A stretch of 64,000 bases of DNA from Chrysiogenes arsenatis DSM 11915 (GCF_000469585.1 NZ_KI273144.1:170753-234752), one strand, 5' to 3'; shown: positions 37,309 to 63,102, counted from the stretch's first letter. Notes: generated by a model from the letters alone, not told the origin. Numbers and translations are program-made.

Positions 37309-37456
37309 TACCGTGCACGCCAGTAACGCATTCCGGTAACCTTCTATAAAATAAATCGTTATCGTTGGCACTATTGTTGCTAGTCATTGCTGATTCGTGA
37401 ATTTGGTTTTCCCCCTGTGTCTGCAGGGTTATTTTGTTGAGTTGGAGTGGACTTTT

Positions 37457-53819: not shown

Positions 53820-53891
53820 GGTATCCAATAACGCGAGGTGATGGCTCGCCGAAAACCATCAGCGAGACATCAATATAATCAGGGTGAAAGC

Positions 53892-55157
53892 ATGCAGCCA
53901 ACGCGAATTTTGGTAGTTGAAGATGAAGGTGTTGTGGCACTGGACATTGAAAGAACGTTACGGAGACTGGGGTATGAGGTATGCGGCTCATGCCCCTCTG
54001 CCGAAGAAGCACTGGAAAGCATCACCCCTCTTATGCCTGACATTATCCTGATGGATATCATGTTGCGGGGCGAAATGGACGGCATTAATGCCGCCGACAT
54101 CATCCGCCATCGCCATGGACTCCCTGTTGTTTTTCTCACGTCGCATGCCGACCGCCCAACGCTTGAGCGCGCTAAGGTGACCAAACCATTCGGCTATATC
54201 CTGAAACCATTTGATGATCGCGAACTGCATTCCAATATCGAAATGGCACTTCACAGTCACCGTATCGAAAAAAAACTGGAAGAGAGTGCCGAACTCTTTC
54301 GCGCCGTATCAGAAAATGCTGTGGCTGCCGTATTTATCATCTGTGAAGATCAGATTATCTATGCCAACGACGCCTTCCTGAAAATTATCGACTACGATGC
54401 CGCAGAGCTCGCCACACTCCGTTTTTCGGAACTGTTGCCAGCAGAATCCCGCGACATTGCCGAGCTGATTCAATGTTGCCAACTCGCGCCGAATCGCTAC
54501 CAAAGAACCATTCAACTGATTGCAAAATCAGGCACTCCCCGTTGGGTAGAACTTGCCACCAATAGCATTATGCTGCAAAATCGATGTTCCGCTATTGCCA
54601 CCGCGCTTGACGTCAGTCTCCTCAAAGAGCTTCAGGAAAAACTCGAGATTTCTGCCAGCACCGATATGCTTACGGGAAGCTTTAACCGCCGCAAATTAGA
54701 CGAAAGTTTCGCACAGGAAAAACACCGTTCCTTCCGCTATCAAGTCCCATTCTGTCTGGCCATTTTCGACATCGACCACTTTAAACAGGTCAACGATACC
54801 CATGGACACTCAGTTGGCGACGATGTACTCCGCACACTCGCAGCGCTTGTTGCTAAATCACTGCGTCCCAATGATTCCCTTTTCCGCTGGGGCGGCGAAG
54901 AGTTTGCGATTCTGACATCCGGCATTGAAGGGGATTCGGCGTATCACATGGCAGAACGGCTCCGGCAGATCATCGCCAACTTTACATTTGAGAGTATTGG
55001 CCGCCTGACTGTCAGTTTTGGCATTGCTGAGTCGTGCGAAGCAGATACCCTTGATTCACTCTTCTTGCGGGCGGACGCGGCGCTGTATCAGTCAAAAGTT
55101 CAAGGACGCAATCGGGTTACCTTGGCGCCAAAACCCACGCCGCATGAACCGTCATGA
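53892..55157 (+). CDS. response regulator with PAS and GGDEF (diguanylate cyclase) domains
   Basis: A 421-residue cytosolic protein: receiver (ILVVEDEGVVALDIERTLRR, phospho-Asp in DIILMDIMLRGEMDG), a PAS domain (ELFRAVSENAVAAVFIICED) and a GGDEF domain with FRWGGEEFAIL. The signature is GGEEF, an active form, and an inhibitory-site RxxD (RPND) lies five residues before it, so product feedback by c-di-GMP is expected. Start at ATG 53892 with AGGGTGA upstream; a longer frame is rejected. Its stop overlaps the next gene, a PAS histidine kinase, by four bases, indicating a kinase-regulator pair that controls c-di-GMP. Confidence 0.92.
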   Translation: MQPTRILVVEDEGVVALDIERTLRRLGYEVCGSCPSAEEALESITPLMPDIILMDIMLRGEMDGINAADIIRHRHGLPVVFLTSHADRPTLERAKVTKPFGYILKPFDDRELHSNIEMALHSHRIEKKLEESAELFRAVSENAVAAVFIICEDQIIYANDAFLKIIDYDAAELATLRFSELLPAESRDIAELIQCCQLAPNRYQRTIQLIAKSGTPRWVELATNSIMLQNRCSAIATALDVSLLKELQEKLEISASTDMLTGSFNRRKLDESFAQEKHRSFRYQVPFCLAIFDIDHFKQVNDTHGHSVGDDVLRTLAALVAKSLRPNDSLFRWGGEEFAILTSGIEGDSAYHMAERLRQIIANFTFESIGRLTVSFGIAESCEADTLDSLFLRADAALYQSKVQGRNRVTLAPKPTPHEPS

Positions 55158-57295
55158 GAAAAGTTCCGGTTCCGATCGACTCGCTCCCCGATATTGTTTT
55201 CTGTAAAGATCGTGAAGGCCTGTATGTTGAGTGCAACAAAGCGTTTGAAGCGCTTTTCGGGCGCACACGCGAAGAAATTCTTGGTTTACGTGATAACGAC
55301 TTTATCCCACAAACGCATGCCGATCTCTTCTACACCGAAGATCAATCCATCATTCATGAAGGCTGTACCATCCGCTCGGATTCATGGATAAAAACTCCCG
55401 ACGGAAATTTTGTACTCTTCGATGTGGTCAAGATCCCGCTGCGTGATGCTTCCGGTGCGATTATCGGCGTATTTGGTACAGGGCGGGACATTACCGACCG
55501 CGAATCACTGCGGATAAAACTGGAACAAAGCGAACAACGACTGCGCCAGGCGCACGCCCTTGCAGGGATGGGACACTGGGAGTGGAATCTTGTCACAAAC
55601 ACCTGTTATTGGTCAGAAGAGTATTATGAAGTCATCGGGCATGATACCAACAAACTTGTGGCCAGTTGCCACTCAATGACCGACATTACCCACCCTGATG
55701 ACCGAAAAATTTTAGATGATTTCATGTCAGCGGTTTTTTCCGCAAACCCCGATCCAATCTTCCGGCTTGAATACCGCATTATCACTGCCACCGGCGCGGT
55801 ACGAACGATTAGCACTCAAGGAGAAGTGATTTTTGATTCCTATGGCACCCCCAGTAAAATCTGCGGCGTCACGCGTGATATCAGCCAAGTGAAAGCTTCG
55901 CGCAAAACCATCGAGCAGTTAAAATCAGCGCTCGATAACAGTTCGGAAGCCGTATTAATCCACACCGGCAGAGGAAAATTTTTGTACGTCAACCAAGCGG
56001 TGGCAGATATTTACAGGTACAGCGTTCAGGATTTCCTGCACCGTGTCCGGCTCTGGGATCTTGATCCAGCTATCACCGCCGAGAATATTGATCGCGTCAT
56101 GCAAACCGTTCGCGAACAAAAAGCCGTACATCTTGAGCTCAACAATCGTCGCAGTAATGGCGAAGTATTCCCCGCCCATATCCGCGTCGAACAACACTTT
56201 CATGATGGCGAAGAGTTCTTTCTGGTGATTGTCCGTGACCTGACCGAAGAACGGCAGAAGCAACGGGCATGGGAAGCATTGATCGCCAAAAATACCGTAT
56301 TAGAGAATATGAATGATGCCATTTTTATCCACGAAGTTGATGGACGTCTTTTAGAAGTCAACCAGAAAACACTTGAAATGTACCGCATTGAGTTCGGCGA
56401 CGAAAGCTATCAGCGTGCAATTACCTACGATATCGCCAAAGATCTTTCAGGACCCGACAACGACCTTGCTGGGCTGACTGCGCTCTGGCAACGGGTAATC
56501 AATGGCGAAATCGCCCGCTTTGAGTGGCAGGCACGGCGTCCACTTGATGGATCGCTGTTCTATGTCGAAGTCATTCTGCGGAAAATATCGCTCTATAACC
56601 GCGAAGTTATCCTTGCCAACGTACGCGATATCACCGAACAAAGAGAATTACGCGAGCAGATCATTTCATCATTACGCGAAAAAGAGCTGATGCTGAAAGA
56701 GATCCACCACCGCGTCAAAAATAACATGCAAGTCGTCTCCAGCCTGCTGAATCTGCAATCCTACCATGCACGCGACAACCATGAAATCGTTACTATTCTG
56801 GCCGAGTGCCAAGAGCGTGTTCGTTCCATGTCGCTGATTCACGAACGACTATACCGCTCGGAAAACCTCTCGCATATCGATTTTTCCGAATACATTCAGT
56901 CACTCGCGCACGGATTATTCCGTAGCTATGTCGCTGCGCCACGACAAATACACTTTCATACCGACGTTGACGCCGTGCCGCTGGATATCAACACCGCAAT
57001 ACCGCTCGGACTCATCCTGAATGAGCTTATTTCCAATGCGTTAAAGCATGCCTTTACCTTACACCAGACCGGTAATTTGACCGTGACACTAAGAAGTAGC
57101 GCCGAGCAGATGGCGTTATGCGTCATTGACGATGGTGTCGGATTACCCGAAGGGTTCGATGCCACCTCCGGCGGCAGTCTCGGTCTGGAACTGGTACGCA
57201 CACTTGCATTACAGTTAAGCGGCACATTCAGCTTGACACACCATGCCGGTGGCGGCTCATGCGCAATGGTAGAGTTTCCTTTTCGGAAGGGGTAG
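55154..57295 (+). CDS. multi-PAS histidine kinase of HisKA_2 type
   Basis: A 713-residue protein without membrane segments. Four PAS domains can be traced: about residues 9-120 (DIVFCKDREGLYVECNKAF), 131-250 (MGHWEWNLVTNTCYWSEEYY), 253-370 (AVLIHTGRGKFLYVNQAV) and 377-500 (NDAIFIHEVDGRLLEVNQKT). The kinase core is HisKA_2: LKEIHHRVKNNMQVVSSLLN carries the phosphorylated His at about residue 517, followed by an ATPase with NALKHAF and DDGVGLPEGFD. It should phosphorylate the receiver of the diguanylate cyclase encoded directly before it. What the PAS domains sense (redox, light, small ligand) is unknown. Confidence 0.92.
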   Translation: MRKVPVPIDSLPDIVFCKDREGLYVECNKAFEALFGRTREEILGLRDNDFIPQTHADLFYTEDQSIIHEGCTIRSDSWIKTPDGNFVLFDVVKIPLRDASGAIIGVFGTGRDITDRESLRIKLEQSEQRLRQAHALAGMGHWEWNLVTNTCYWSEEYYEVIGHDTNKLVASCHSMTDITHPDDRKILDDFMSAVFSANPDPIFRLEYRIITATGAVRTISTQGEVIFDSYGTPSKICGVTRDISQVKASRKTIEQLKSALDNSSEAVLIHTGRGKFLYVNQAVADIYRYSVQDFLHRVRLWDLDPAITAENIDRVMQTVREQKAVHLELNNRRSNGEVFPAHIRVEQHFHDGEEFFLVIVRDLTEERQKQRAWEALIAKNTVLENMNDAIFIHEVDGRLLEVNQKTLEMYRIEFGDESYQRAITYDIAKDLSGPDNDLAGLTALWQRVINGEIARFEWQARRPLDGSLFYVEVILRKISLYNREVILANVRDITEQRELREQIISSLREKELMLKEIHHRVKNNMQVVSSLLNLQSYHARDNHEIVTILAECQERVRSMSLIHERLYRSENLSHIDFSEYIQSLAHGLFRSYVAAPRQIHFHTDVDAVPLDINTAIPLGLILNELISNALKHAFTLHQTGNLTVTLRSSAEQMALCVIDDGVGLPEGFDATSGGSLGLELVRTLALQLSGTFSLTHHAGGGSCAMVEFPFRKG

Positions 57296-57318: not shown

Positions 57319-57346
57319 TTGTAACCTTGGGCAACCATTTCCGTTC
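57319..57346 (+). promoter_or_regulatory. ECF-type promoter of the sigma factor operon
   Basis: TGTAACCTT (57320-57328), 13 bases, then CGTT (57342-57345). The same elements with the same spacing occur at 59677-59702. GTAACC and CGTT are typical of ECF sigma -35 and -10 elements. The sigma gene's ATG is eight bases beyond the -10, so the message would have almost no leader. Confidence 0.7.
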
Positions 57347-57353
57347 CCCTTGT

Positions 57354-57872
57354 ATGCAATCAACCTTCGCTGAATTTTATCATCGCTACCAGCGTGAGCT
57401 GTATTACTACCTACTGAAAGTTACCGGATGCGTGGATGATGCGGCGGAGCTTATGCAGGAAAGTTTTGCCCGCTATTTCGAACACTATCACCACGAACAA
57501 CCTTCGCGCTCACTCCTGTATACGGTTGCCAGAAACGCATCCATTGATCGCTTTCGACAACATCATGAACATGTTGCGTTTGATCCAGAATGCCATGCGC
57601 AAAGTAGCGAGTCACTTGAAACAGAGGCCTGCCAACGCGAACAATTTAAGAACGTGTTGTGTGCGATGCAGCATCTACCGCTCGATGAGCGTGAAGTATT
57701 GGCGCTGGCAACCATAGAGGATCTTTCCTACCGAGAAATTGCGAGCATCCTCGGCTGGAGCGAAGGAAATGTAAAAGTTCGCGTGCACCGCGCACGGCAA
57801 GCACTTCGTCAAGTTTTGTCACATTCGCGAAAGCAAGCGCGTGTTTCAACGGGAGGACACCATGAAGAATGA
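57354..57872 (+). CDS. ECF-type RNA polymerase sigma factor
   Basis: A 172-residue sigma factor with only regions 2 and 4: FAEFYHRYQRELYYYLLKVT and DDAAELMQESFARYF (region 2), then LPLDEREVLALATIEDLSYR and EIASILGWSEGNVKVRVHRA (region 4, helix-turn-helix). It directs RNA polymerase to dedicated promoters. No good ribosome site precedes ATG 57354, and a TTG nine codons earlier lacks one too; the promoter-like motif just upstream suggests a leaderless message. The downstream gene, which starts inside its 3' end, encodes a membrane anti-sigma-like protein. It probably controls its own operon and the lipoprotein gene at 59772. Confidence 0.9.
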   Translation: MQSTFAEFYHRYQRELYYYLLKVTGCVDDAAELMQESFARYFEHYHHEQPSRSLLYTVARNASIDRFRQHHEHVAFDPECHAQSSESLETEACQREQFKNVLCAMQHLPLDEREVLALATIEDLSYREIASILGWSEGNVKVRVHRARQALRQVLSHSRKQARVSTGGHHEE

Positions 57873-58524
57873 AGAGCTTATTAGTCTCTATATCGATGAT
57901 GAACTATCGCTGACTCAAAAAAAAGCATTTGTGGGGTGCGTACACGAAAATCCATCGTATGTGGCTGAAGTGCATGAATTTATCGACCAGGAACTCATGC
58001 TTCATGCAGGCGATACACTCCCGCTTCCGAAAAACTTCGAAGTGCCGCAGCAGACGCACTCAATACCTTCTGTGGCGTCCGTACAGAAAAAGAAACTACT
58101 CGATCATCCTTTTGTGCGGTACGGAAGTGGTTGGGTAGCGGCAGCGGGAATCTTCCTCTTTCTGTTTGCCCACTACCGACCAATGCCACTACAAACCACG
58201 CCAACACTCGCATCAGATATTGCAACAATACGCTATCAGCCAGATGCGCCAGCACCCCTACGGGAATACCGTTTTCTGCTGTATGAACCACAGGCGCAAG
58301 AGGTTTCTGTCGTCGGTAGTTTTAATAATTGGCAGCCAATTCCGTTAAGCGCGTTGGGCACATCAGGCTACTGGGAACTGCACTTACCACTTCCTGCAGG
58401 GGAGTACGCCTATACTTTTCAAATTGATGGCGTTCTGTCGTTGCCAGATCCCACTGTCCCCTATGTACAGCCCGATGGCTTTGGGGGTGTCAACTCAATT
58501 TTAGTGGTGGGGGACATGCTGTGA
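57862..58524 (+). CDS. anti-sigma-like membrane protein with periplasmic glycogen-binding (CBM48/AMPK-beta) domain
   Basis: A 220-residue protein in three parts. Residues 1-85: cytosolic, with LISLYIDDELSLTQKKAF, as in anti-sigma N-termini. Residues 88-104: one membrane helix (GWVAAAGIFLFLFAHY). Residues 137-216: a CBM48/AMPK-beta domain, with VVGSFNNWQPIPL (Trp157), GYWELHLPLPAGEYAYTFQI, DPTVP and the end PDGFGGVNSILVV. One of the two ligand tryptophans of AMPK-beta is kept (Trp157); the second position is Leu. By topology the sugar-binding part is outside the inner membrane, so it could sense a glucan or envelope glycan and release the sigma factor. No zinc-type HxxxCxxC motif. GGGAGG upstream of the ATG; overlaps the sigma gene by 11 bases. 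Confidence 0.82.
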   Translation: MKNEELISLYIDDELSLTQKKAFVGCVHENPSYVAEVHEFIDQELMLHAGDTLPLPKNFEVPQQTHSIPSVASVQKKKLLDHPFVRYGSGWVAAAGIFLFLFAHYRPMPLQTTPTLASDIATIRYQPDAPAPLREYRFLLYEPQAQEVSVVGSFNNWQPIPLSALGTSGYWELHLPLPAGEYAYTFQIDGVLSLPDPTVPYVQPDGFGGVNSILVVGDML

Positions 58525-58889
58525 GCCGTTTAAAACAGTTCTTTGTAGCGTTTATCCCCGTAACGATGCTCTCCGCAAGTGGATGCGCTACGCATACAAT
58601 AAAACAAAATGGGCCGATGCTTGAGTTCGTCATGCAGATACCAGAAGCAAAATCTGTAGTGTTAGCAACATCATACGACGACTTTGTCCATCACCCCGTA
58701 CAACGCAACAAGGATAATATATGGAGCATCACCCTGCATATGCCACTGGCAACTCAACCCATTCGATACTTTACTGTGATTGATGGCATTCCCATATTGC
58801 CAGAATGCCCTTTGCGAGAACCTGATGGCTTTGGTGGCTATAATTGCCTGTATGAATTGAAATATACCATAGCGGAGAACGGCTCATGA
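58521..58889 (+). CDS. small lipoprotein with a CBM48-like fold
   Basis: A 122-residue protein with a GTG start overlapping the anti-sigma stop (GTGA). The signal peptide ends at a lipobox-like SASGC (Cys22). The remaining 100 residues look like a shortened CBM48-type domain: strands near LEFVMQIPEAKSVVLAT, then NIWSITLHMPLATQPIRYFT and finally REPDGFGGYNCLYEL, which repeats the PDGFGG-x-N end of the domain in the preceding protein. Probably the two domains share ancestry. Outer or inner membrane attachment is expected; what it binds is not visible. Confidence 0.75.
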   Translation: MSRLKQFFVAFIPVTMLSASGCATHTIKQNGPMLEFVMQIPEAKSVVLATSYDDFVHHPVQRNKDNIWSITLHMPLATQPIRYFTVIDGIPILPECPLREPDGFGGYNCLYELKYTIAENGS

Positions 58890-59668
58890 AAACGCACCCT
58901 TTCCTTTGGCTGTTGAAGGCCATTTGTTTTATTCTTCTCCTCGCACTTGCGGTACATGCAGAGGAAGCTTTCTACCAAGCATTGGAGAACTCGGGATGGA
59001 ATGAGACAGAAAAAAACCAGCTGACAATGATAGTGCAACAAGCCGAGCAGGATGGGCTTCCCACCTCTCCCTTGCATGCCAAAGTGTACGAGGGAATGGC
59101 AAAAAATATCCCTGCAGAAAGAATTATTCGTGCGGTATCACTGGCGAATGAGCAGCATAAAGCTGCCCGAACTCTGAGCACAAAACTTTCGCAAGCGCCC
59201 CTTGAACAGAACGCTCTCTTCGAGCATGCCGTCGAAGCAATGACGGCTGGTATTCCAGCACAATCCATTATGGCAGTCATGTCGCACCAGCATTTTTCTC
59301 ACCCAGGGGTTGCGCAAGAAACTTTAGCTCTCATGCGCGATCTTGCGCGTCGAGGCTCTTCAGCAGAAGAAGTAGAAAATCTCGCACAAACTATCGCCAA
59401 ATCACGCCTGAGCAAACGAGAAATTGGAGAGTTGCGCACAGAAATTACTCGGCACGGCAGATGGGGAAAATCAGACACATTTACGCGTGATATTACGCGC
59501 CGTGTTTCTCGTGGCGAGCGCGGATCTGCCGCCGTTCGCGGAAGCTCTTCCGGGGGGAGTAGTAGCCAAAAGAGCACAAACAGCAGCAATCCATCGCGTA
59601 AAGGGAGCGGTTCTTCCGGTGGAAGTCACGGCTCATCCAAAGGTGGTGGGTCTGGAAGCGGGAGATAA
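58886..59668 (+). CDS. secreted protein with Ser/Gly-rich C-terminal tail
   Basis: A 260-residue protein with a signal peptide (LWLLKAICFILLLALAVHA, cleavage about residue 25), an all-helical body of about 185 residues (AFYQALENSGWNETEKNQL and later repeats of helical Ala/Glu segments), and a low-complexity tail from about residue 212 made of Ser, Gly, Lys and Asn (RGSSSGGSSSQKSTNSS and so on, ending SGSGR). No catalytic motif is seen. The start overlaps the lipoprotein stop by four bases. The helical part could interact with the other envelope members of the unit; the tail is reminiscent of flexible linkers or surface-exposed ends. Function unknown. Confidence 0.78.
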   Translation: MKTHPFLWLLKAICFILLLALAVHAEEAFYQALENSGWNETEKNQLTMIVQQAEQDGLPTSPLHAKVYEGMAKNIPAERIIRAVSLANEQHKAARTLSTKLSQAPLEQNALFEHAVEAMTAGIPAQSIMAVMSHQHFSHPGVAQETLALMRDLARRGSSAEEVENLAQTIAKSRLSKREIGELRTEITRHGRWGKSDTFTRDITRRVSRGERGSAAVRGSSSGGSSSQKSTNSSNPSRKGSGSSGGSHGSSKGGGSGSGR

Positions 59669-59676
59669 AAAAACTT

Positions 59677-59703
59677 TGTAACCTTTTGGGCATTACACCG
59701 TTT
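59677..59703 (+). promoter_or_regulatory. ECF-type promoter of the DUF2202 lipoprotein gene
   Basis: TGTAACCTT (59677-59685), 13 bases, then CGTTT (59699-59703): identical in both elements and spacing to the motif before the sigma gene. A 60-base leader follows, containing the perfect hairpin TCCGGC-CTA-GCCGGA (59741-59755) just before the ribosome-binding site. Confidence 0.75.
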
Positions 59704-59771
59704 ACTCATACAGATGGGCAACAACGCCATCCACAATATTTCCGGCCTAGCCGGATAAAGAGGTGATACGT

Positions 59772-60992
59772 ATGAGAACACGAACCGTAGTAATTTCTCT
59801 GGCAATTGGTGCGCTCTTGCTTCATGGATGCGGGAGCAGTAGCAGCGATAGTGCACCAGCACCTCAAGCAATTTTTACTGACATTACTGTTGAGCGAGGC
59901 CCCGTACTCGGTGCTGTTGTAACAGACAGCATGGGAAATCGTGCTCGTCAACTTGAAGTCGGAAAATCCGTCTACCGCTTTGATGGCCAAATCCACTATC
60001 CCATCGCCGCTCAAGGTGGGTATATTGACGTCAATCGCAACGGAAACATTGACACGAATGACGCTCCCCTTTTGGGTTCCCTTCGATCATCTCAGGGCAA
60101 TGTTGTTACCGTATTGACCACTGTACTACAAAATAACCCTGAGCTTTTGGAAACTGTAGTCAATACGTTTGGCTTGGATCCCGACGAGCTGTATGGACAA
60201 ACTCCAGGCAAGAACAGCCGCATTGCTGCACTCTCCGATGGCATTTATGAACAATGCTTATTGAGCAATATTCCCGTTGACAGTTTGGATGCCACGGATG
60301 TGAATGCGCTTGTAGGTGCCCTGCAAATGCGGATAGATTCGTACGAATCACTGGAAGCGACCGAAGGGATGAATGCGGTTCAAATGCGCGAAGCGCATAT
60401 CGTAAACCAATGGGTAGCGGCTCTTACAGGAAACCAATTACTTGATGCCATAGACGCCGAAGAGGAATCGATGGCGATGAAAAGTTATCGCATGATGTCG
60501 CATACCCCCGAATCTTTGGTCACTACATTCCCCTTAGCAACCCTAAACGATTCTCAAGAAAACTTTCTGGCCACCCTCTGGGAAGAAGAAAAATTGGCGC
60601 GCGACGTATATCTTGCTCTGTATCAACAACATAACCTGAGACTTCTGAGAAATATTGCCGCCTCGGAGCAAGAACATATGGACGCTACCGCTGCGCTGCT
60701 GACACGGTACAGCATTGAATACCCACTAACGCTGGCCAGCGGCACGTTTGCGAATGAAACATTTCAAACCCTGTATAACACGTTGGTAGCACAAGGAAGC
60801 GCTTCGCTAGGAGCGGCACTGCAAGTCGGCGCCTCTATTGAACAGCTTGATATTGATGACATTGATCACGGCTTAACGCTCAATATGCCCACCGACGTAC
60901 GCACAATTCTCCAAAACCTCCGCCAAGGAAGTGTGAATCATCTTTCGTCGTTTCACCGCCTTGCCGAGCGCGTTGCAATACTCCCAAATTAA
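59772..60992 (+). CDS. lipoprotein with EF-hand-like loop and ferritin-like DUF2202 domain
   Basis: A 406-residue lipoprotein: signal peptide with lipobox LLHGC (Cys20), then a Ser-rich linker. Residues 35-180 are a beta-domain with a calcium-loop-like DVNRNGNID (residues 86-94; Asp97 could be the twelfth position of an EF-hand loop). The C-terminal half (from about 280) is DUF2202: LWEEEKLARDVYLALY, SEQEHMDATAALLTRY and ASLGAALQVGASIEQLDIDD. The EEEK and EQEH helices are ferritin-like and could hold a di-metal centre. GAGGTGA precedes the ATG; an earlier GTG is also possible. A strong terminator follows, so it is a single-gene unit, driven by the ECF-type promoter. Confidence 0.85.
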   Translation: MRTRTVVISLAIGALLLHGCGSSSSDSAPAPQAIFTDITVERGPVLGAVVTDSMGNRARQLEVGKSVYRFDGQIHYPIAAQGGYIDVNRNGNIDTNDAPLLGSLRSSQGNVVTVLTTVLQNNPELLETVVNTFGLDPDELYGQTPGKNSRIAALSDGIYEQCLLSNIPVDSLDATDVNALVGALQMRIDSYESLEATEGMNAVQMREAHIVNQWVAALTGNQLLDAIDAEEESMAMKSYRMMSHTPESLVTTFPLATLNDSQENFLATLWEEEKLARDVYLALYQQHNLRLLRNIAASEQEHMDATAALLTRYSIEYPLTLASGTFANETFQTLYNTLVAQGSASLGAALQVGASIEQLDIDDIDHGLTLNMPTDVRTILQNLRQGSVNHLSSFHRLAERVAILPN

Positions 60993-61015: not shown

Positions 61016-61060
61016 AAAACAATCGCCATGTTGCATCGATTGCAGCATGGCGATTGTTTT
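61016..61060. terminator. strong bidirectional terminator after the DUF2202 lipoprotein gene
   Basis: AAAACAATCGCCATG and CATGGCGATTGTTTT form a perfect 15-pair stem with an inner TGCA/TGCA extension and loop; T-runs on both strands. Confidence 0.93.
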
Positions 61061-62503: not shown

Positions 62504-62779
62504 ATGAATATAACAAACGACATAAAGCCGGTGAGCTATTTTAAGTCCCACACCGCCGATATGCTAAAACAGATCAATGAGACACATCGCCCAGTAATTA
62601 TTACACAAAACGGTGAAGTAAAGGGCGTTCTCCAAGATCCCAGAAGCTACGAAAATATGAAAAACGCTTTCGGAATCATTAAGTTAATCTCTATGGGAGA
62701 AGAAGATATAAGAAAAGGAGATACCATCCCACAGGATGAAATTTTTGATACTCTTGAAAAAATGTTATCAAATAAATGA
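62504..62779 (+). CDS. Phd/YefM-family antitoxin
   Basis: A 91-residue protein with the Phd/YefM N-terminal DNA-binding fold (KPVSYFKSHTADMLKQINET, then RPVIITQNGEVKGVLQDPRS) and a charged, presumably flexible C-terminal part (EEDIRKGDTIPQDEIFDTLE) that would wrap the toxin. The stop overlaps the toxin ATG by four bases. Base composition is AT-richer than its neighbours, in line with horizontal transfer. Such antitoxins also repress their own operon; no obvious operator was identified in the short upstream gap, though the start is preceded by GGGGGTG. Confidence 0.93.
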   Translation: MNITNDIKPVSYFKSHTADMLKQINETHRPVIITQNGEVKGVLQDPRSYENMKNAFGIIKLISMGEEDIRKGDTIPQDEIFDTLEKMLSNK

Positions 62780-63102
62780 ACAATCAATACCAAGTAGAGT
62801 GGACGCGCACCGCAAACAATGACTTAATTCGTATCATTGAATTTATTGCGACGGATAGTCCTACCAACGCAAGACGGGTTCTGAAAAAAATTAAATCAGA
62901 AGTGGCGTCCTTGCACCAGACACCGAAAAGAGGAAGAGTTATTCCCGAGCTAAAAGAGCAAGGTATAACGCAGTACAATGAAATTGTCATAGCGCCATGG
63001 AGATTGATGTATAGGGTTTCAGAAAAAACAGTTTATGTCGTTTCCGTTATAGACTCCAGAAGAAATGTCGAGGATATCTTGCTGGAAAGGTTCACGATGT
63101 AA
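62776..63102 (+). CDS. RelE/ParE-family toxin
   Basis: A 108-residue protein with the RelE/ParE fold: YQVEWTRTANNDLIRIIEFI, SPTNARRVLKKIKSEV, then PKRGRVIPELKEQGITQYNE, and the closing strands APWRLMYRVSEKTVYVVSVI plus DSRRNVEDILLER. This is closer to ParE (gyrase poison) than to RelE (ribosome-dependent RNase) by the RVIPEL and IDSRRN segments, but mechanism cannot be settled by eye. It pairs with the Phd/YefM antitoxin and is inserted between two polyamine genes. Confidence 0.92.
   Translation: MNNQYQVEWTRTANNDLIRIIEFIATDSPTNARRVLKKIKSEVASLHQTPKRGRVIPELKEQGITQYNEIVIAPWRLMYRVSEKTVYVVSVIDSRRNVEDILLERFTM

Follow-up and report, generated by a model that had tools for sequence, protein, structure and literature searches.

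We describe a compact gene cassette in which an ECF sigma factor is followed by a membrane anti-sigma-like protein whose far end is a CBM48/AMPK-beta domain, predicted to face outward. The locus, at 57354-60992 of the window (the whole stretch of DNA analysed, 64,000 nt from a genome of 2.83 Mb in 22 contigs), is no artefact and is not ordinary. ECF signalling with a putative CBM48 anti-sigma factor appears to be new, is unusually well conserved and comes with a testable regulon, and the cassette is apparently a widespread bacterial gene switch that has gone undescribed. As the ligand we favour a sugar-type polymer of the envelope or surface matrix, and the main rival is protein-protein sensing of a partner. 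The features on which the argument rests are as follows.

57320-57345, + strand: ECF-type promoter of the sigma operon, TGTAACCTT-N13-CGTT, immediately ahead of the sigma start codon (ATG at 57354; motif search)
57354-57872, + strand: ECF sigma factor of 172 residues, regions 2 and 4 (Pfam; alignment A2)
57862-58524, + strand: anti-sigma-like membrane protein of 220 residues with a predicted periplasmic CBM48/AMPK-beta domain (Pfam, homologues, model, Foldseek, topology)
57862-58041, + strand: residues 1-60, a three-helix part predicted to be the cytosolic anti-sigma domain, lacking the zinc ligands (model, conserved residues, zf-HC2-type profile link)
58123-58170, + strand: single membrane helix, about residues 88-103 (model, hydrophobicity and positive-inside count)
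58258-58509, + strand: CBM48/AMPK-beta domain, residues 133-216, predicted to face outward (Pfam, PDB profile search, model, Foldseek)
58521-58889, + strand: lipoprotein with lipobox Cys22, a second, paralogous CBM48-type domain and invariant Cys96 and Cys109 (profile comparison, alignment)
58886-59668, + strand: secreted all-helical KxxEGxAK protein with a Gly/Ser-rich disordered tail at about 59534-59665 (model, conserved partner)
59677-59702, + strand: second copy of TGTAACCTT-N13-CGTT, before the DUF2202 gene (motif search)
59772-60992, + strand: DUF2202 (ferritin-like family) lipoprotein, predicted regulon member (profile match; homologues near other cassettes)
61020-61057, strand-neutral: probable terminator, the inverted repeat caatcgccatg...catggcgattg with a run of T after it (direct sequence reading)
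37335-37360, + strand: tentative weaker third site, GGTAACCTT-N13-CGTTATCG (-N13-CGTTAT), some 100 bp upstream of a cytochrome c biogenesis gene of ResB/CcsA-like type

Each of the first four genes shares 4 to 11 bases with its neighbour, the start of the anti-sigma gene overlapping the sigma stop, and the DUF2202 gene follows after a gap. The initial annotation had read the first two genes as an ECF sigma factor and a membrane anti-sigma-like protein, and the analysis bears this out: the sigma factor scores 42.5 bits against Pfam Sigma70_r2 and 66.8 bits against r4_2, and its neighbour combines a membrane helix with a CBM48 domain. Consistent with an ECF assignment, the sigma factor has regions 2 and 4 only, an ECF-type promoter and predicted autoregulation. 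The protein encoded at 59772-60992 matches the DUF2202 profile with 137.2 bits against a curated cut-off of 22. Directly upstream of the sigma promoter, at 53838-57295, lie genes for a response regulator-PAS-GGDEF protein and then a multi-PAS HisKA_2 histidine kinase, a pair that looks independent of the cassette; at 62504-63102, two overlapping small genes resemble, by reading only, a toxin-antitoxin pair of the Phd/YefM-ParE type.

That similar gene sets might exist in other genomes had been anticipated, and a neighbourhood search found them in number. The anti-sigma protein is present in 24 of 60 relatives, and 399 candidate stretches in GTDB contigs were confirmed for it; of the best 80, those with a name are Desulfobacterota-type or Deferribacterota. 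Among 100 fetched loci from Deferribacterota and Desulfobacterota, which include about 10 duplicates, the anti-sigma gene lies directly downstream of sigma in every case, and the exact order sigma, anti-sigma, lipoprotein, helical protein is found in 90, with a few of the others reordered. In the phylum of Desulfosarcina, 18 of 20 more divergent loci carry the sigma factor, the CBM48 anti-sigma factor and the helical partner, and the remaining two are at contig ends; several of these loci encode an anti-sigma domain of the canonical zinc type, which scored above the cut-off in those tested. Across bacteria, 385 genomes gave 25 matches to the helical family, 13 of them outside the phylum of the window, and a comparison of coordinates placed all 25 no more than about 1 kb from a CBM48 anti-sigma match. 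At 20 loci from other phyla, an ECF sigma gene adjoins the anti-sigma gene in all 20 and the helical partner is found in 16. Judged by these matches, the looser trio of sigma factor, predicted CBM48 anti-sigma factor and KxxEGxAK helical protein spans further phyla. Clustering of the neighbours yielded no fifth conserved cassette gene; the glycine-rich genes are too divergent to have grouped into a single large cluster, and they surfaced through their promoter instead.

What is known of CBM48 domains comes mainly from glucan enzymes and kinases of the cytosol. The protein encoded at 57862-58524 scores 40.8 bits against CBM_48 (curated cut-off 22.4) and 37.8 bits against AMPK1_CBM (26.8), and all 89 aligned homologues match both profiles at E <=0.01. 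By profile search, AMPK beta is the top PDB match (E 1.8e-12). The AlphaFold model has three N-terminal helices, one membrane helix and a confident domain at residues 133-216 (pLDDT 94-98 over 131-210), and Foldseek ranks AMPK beta first, with a TM score of 0.87 (TMt) and 34% identity to the isolated glycogen-binding domain 1z0m_B. The predicted CBM48/AMPK-beta fold was thereby upheld by structure prediction. Stand-alone 'isoamylase early set' proteins of Pseudoalteromonas, about 100 residues long and encoded within glycogen operons, were considered as anti-sigma factors and rejected.

The orientation of the domain can be read from its flanks. In every one of the 89 homologues, a 19-residue segment reaches a mean hydropathy of at least 1.49, and the lysines and arginines flanking this segment number 3.47 on its N side and 1.39 on its C side; the N side is the more positive in 78 of the 89 homologues, and the opposite holds in 3. 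Because of this charge bias around a hydrophobic stretch, the sequence points to a cytosolic N-terminus and an outward-facing CBM48 domain, in agreement with the topology first suggested.

The name glycogen-binding, which the domain had also been given, fits its fold, and binding itself is a putative function. Its fold is that of the AMPK beta domain (PDB 1z0m, 4yee), and W157 and N211, equivalent to AMPK W100 and N150, are invariant in 89 of 89 homologues, with F207 nearly so. The equivalent of W133, in contrast, is lost in the branch of the window (mostly R, K, E or Q; L in the window itself), and that of K126 is replaced by S, T or A in a hand alignment to AMPK, so the anti-sigma domain lacks a complete AMPK-type glucan site made up of the W100, K126, W133 and N150 equivalents. 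In the related zinc-finger branch, 7 of 11 proteins have Trp at the W133 position, and this second Trp is retained in most members with the W-L-P-D-P motif. As GDFNxW is common in CBM48 domains, the conservation of W157 may have a structural reason. That the outer domain would bind a glycan is plausible. Clustering of the neighbours at the 100 loci revealed no polysaccharide gene as a conserved neighbour of the cassette, which we count against a glycan sensor.

The two genes that follow supply possible partners. By itself, the lipoprotein gave no Pfam match; its family, however, aligns with the CBM48 half of the anti-sigma factor with an hhalign probability of 99.2 (E 2.6e-19), as expected from the earlier suggestion that the two proteins share a domain type, and the two are also linked by a search match at E 1.2e-5. 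The lipobox Cys is invariant in the family, as are Cys96 and Cys109 (75 of 75), and a DDFG-x-EN loop is common to the CBM48 domains of both proteins. Among the distant loci, L186, L189, L192, L263, L266 and L277 have a short CBM48 protein adjoining the module. At the other-phyla loci L269, L270, L272, L274 and L281, a longer open reading frame beside the trio ends in a weak CBM48-like stretch and may encode an outer-envelope counterpart of the lipoprotein. The next protein was correctly noticed as secreted and Ser/Gly-tailed: its model shows an all-helical body, with pLDDT 94-98 for residues 31-190, and a tail predicted to be disordered. It has no credible Pfam or NCBIfam family and no significant Foldseek match in the PDB (best E 0.12). 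What had been overlooked is that, on the evidence of its alignments and gene neighbourhoods, it belongs to a near-obligate partner family, in which the core K66..E69-G70..K73 is invariant. Short relatives that lack the Gly tail have this core too (hhalign probability 99.1, E 7e-19).

These partners raise the possibility that the CBM48 domain is a protein-protein module, with the lipoprotein or the helical protein binding this domain and controlling the stability of the anti-sigma factor, and with a misfolded or overproduced secreted protein as the signal. RseB controls RseA in this manner in the envelope-stress response of E. coli. The helical gene is nearly always adjacent and often has its own promoter, as would be expected of a feedback regulator; the shared DDFG-x-EN loop could form a common interface, one glucan-site Trp is lost in the branch of the window, and no sugar genes are linked to the cassette. 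Against this, the two invariant residues W157 and N211 map to the glucan site of AMPK, and part of the related branch retains the second Trp. We consider the protein-protein explanation unlikely, and it is the strongest of the alternatives to the sugar-type polymer that we favour.

The promoter connects the cassette to its predicted targets. The motif TGTAACCTT-N13-CGTT occurs twice in the window against 0.01 occurrences expected, at 57320-57345 and 59677-59702, as fits the initial assignment of the DUF2202 gene to the same promoter type as sigma. The genome's one remaining exact match was rejected as a target, as it sits inside a bioA-like coding region. The site at 37335-37360, one base off the -35 consensus, may be a third site at which this sigma factor acts in the window. 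In relatives, [TCA]GTAAC-N16-CGT is found near the gene start of sigma in 54 of 88 cases and of the helical gene in 36 of 85, against 1 of 86 for the lipoprotein and 0 of 90 for the anti-sigma factor. Spacings of 15 or 17 occur near cassette gene starts in two cases only; over all loci there are 147 sites at N16 against 1, 3, 3 and 2 at N14, N15, N17 and N18, and the spacing-15 version, used as a negative control, gave 12 sites, none of them near a cassette gene. At L168, the helical gene does not lie behind sigma and anti-sigma, and it retains the promoter. As TGTAAC-N16-CGT was not seen in the zinc-finger branch or at the other-phyla loci, the regulon claim is limited to the branch of the window.

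Within this branch, the regulon is predicted to include glycine-rich secreted proteins, which had also been overlooked. Outside the cassettes, 49 remaining promoter sites have a downstream open reading frame; 35 of these 49 are glycine-rich (19% Gly or more), compared with 27 of 890 neighbouring genes (Fisher p 2e-35), a value that is conservative because the 27 include some of the targets. The glycine-rich targets mostly begin with a signal-peptide-like segment, and many have GPGDGTG-type repeats. Small secreted glycine-rich proteins with GPGDGTG or QDGTGFG repeats lie under the promoter, sometimes beside DUF2202 genes, at L042, L061, L066, L086, L096, L115, L129 and others. In most Deferribacterota loci, a glycine-rich gene directly upstream of sigma bears the promoter, which explains why sigma lacks one of its own there. 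Homologues of DUF2202 are found near seven further cassettes, several of them behind a promoter target of the glycine-rich type, and are absent from most cassettes. The promoter also stands before a PAS-like protein of 205-209 residues with a C-terminal Cys-containing stretch at L069 (5536-6165) and L084 (7570-8187), possibly a second kind of target. In the window itself, DUF2202 is the one clear target outside the cassette, and this counts against a sensor module.

The ferritin-like family of the DUF2202 protein and a Cys96-Cys109 disulfide would, if they indicate output and signal, make the cassette a metal or redox stress module in which CBM48 is a scaffold. The Cys pair is invariant in all 75 lipoproteins, DUF2202 genes recur as just described, and some promoter targets carry Cys repeats such as RDGSC. 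However, disulfides are common among periplasmic proteins, most cassettes are without DUF2202, and most other targets are glycine-rich, secreted and free of repeated Cys motifs; we regard a metal or redox module as quite improbable.

The N-terminal part of the membrane protein bears on whether it is an anti-sigma factor. In this part of the family, S8, D12, E14, K20, F23 and E44 are invariant. The match to zf-HC2 reaches 14.6 bits, under the Pfam threshold, and the zinc ligands are missing: the HxxxCxxC motif is absent from the protein of the window and present in sister branch A9. In tested members of the related zinc-finger branch, zf-HC2 is above the Pfam cut-off and the gene adjoins sigma. 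Over the full length, the branch of the window and the zinc-finger branch are homologous by profile (E 1.4e-29); the N-terminal part alone matches weakly (hhalign probability 9.5, E 0.0034). As in class I anti-sigma factors, there is a helical N-terminal domain, a single span, a predicted N-in/C-out orientation and a gene directly after sigma. The missing zinc-finger motif would suit an unrelated glucan-binding protein sharing the operon by chance, but the translational overlap with sigma, the constant position behind it, the canonical zf-HC2 of the related branch and the full-length homology to that branch make this highly improbable. The membrane protein probably binds and inhibits its cognate sigma factor.

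From the gene set, fold, topology trend, promoter with its targets and partner conservation, all of which come from sequence statistics or models, we infer a mechanism in which sigma is sequestered, a glycan is the signal and proteolysis frees sigma to drive a surface output. The anti-sigma factor would keep sigma at the inner membrane through its small helical N-terminal domain, span the membrane once and present its CBM48/AMPK-beta domain to the periplasm, and the envelope lipoprotein with the paralogous domain would complete the sensor as its other half. Both domains would change state in response to a sugar-like polymer of the envelope or surface matrix, or to the loss of such a polymer. 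Release of sigma would probably follow from proteolysis of the anti-sigma factor, or else from a conformational change, as class knowledge suggests, and free sigma would then switch on its own operon, the gene of the helical KxxEGxAK partner (which often has a second promoter to itself) and those of the secreted glycine-rich or DUF2202 proteins. We give this self-contained module, in which two CBM48 domains sense an envelope polymer, an even chance of being correct. More tentatively, and with some doubt, we propose a hitherto undescribed class of ECF signalling, spread over several phyla, whose paired CBM48 domains, one on the inner-membrane anti-sigma factor and one on the envelope lipoprotein, would gauge a polysaccharide outside the cytoplasm; with its near-obligate helical KxxEGxAK partner, the system would turn on a surface layer made of secreted glycine-rich proteins.

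Several known systems resemble the cassette in part. RseA and RseB likewise combine an inner-membrane anti-sigma factor with a dedicated envelope partner from the same operon; we saw no sequence relation to them, and here the partner bears a copy of the sensor's own domain. Class I ECF/zf-HC2 anti-sigma pairs are alike in gene order, overlap and single span, and the sister branch even has their canonical zinc motif, whereas the branch of the window differs in its missing zinc ligands, its CBM48 outer half and its additional conserved lipoprotein and helical partner. The AMPK beta domain differs in that the domain of the window is predicted to be extracytoplasmic and is fused to an anti-sigma factor, besides the two glucan-site residues not kept. 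ECF52 and ECF53 sigma factors have membrane and predicted carbohydrate-binding extensions on sigma itself (PMC10766802); sigma control is tied to a predicted carbohydrate-binding part in both cases, but there it is fused to sigma and here it lies on a separate anti-sigma factor. We found no paper on this set of genes, nor any on a CBM48/AMPK1_CBM anti-sigma factor, on an isoamylase early set in this role or on DUF2202 with a sigma factor; a catalogue entry in the ECF re-classification (10.1093/nar/gkaa1229) is possible.

The nearest functional precedent is RsgI/SigI, although it differs from the cassette in both sigma type and sensor module. In Clostridium thermocellum, RsgI is a membrane anti-sigma factor with an extracytoplasmic sensory module and an intracellular part that holds sigma, encoded in an autoregulated operon (PMC6056542). 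These biomass sensors (PMC6056542, PMC4711584) share with the cassette the membrane anti-sigma plan, the one membrane part and the autoregulated operon; SigI, however, is not of this ECF type, the sensors include CBM3-type rather than CBM48 modules, and the targets are saccharolytic and cellulosome genes. SigI is absent from the 25 best NCBIfam matches of our sigma factor, and the membrane protein gave no RsgI match. We know of no CBM48 lipoprotein or KxxEGxAK partner in RsgI/SigI systems. The CBM48 domain described here probably serves as the sensor in a transcription switch that occurs in hundreds of genomes from several phyla and for which we found no function on record; the promoter motif, partner family and target list now supplied make the questions of sensing and output directly testable. 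If a glycan is sensed, the cassette would be to Gram-negative ECF signalling what the RsgI biomass sensors are to clostridia.
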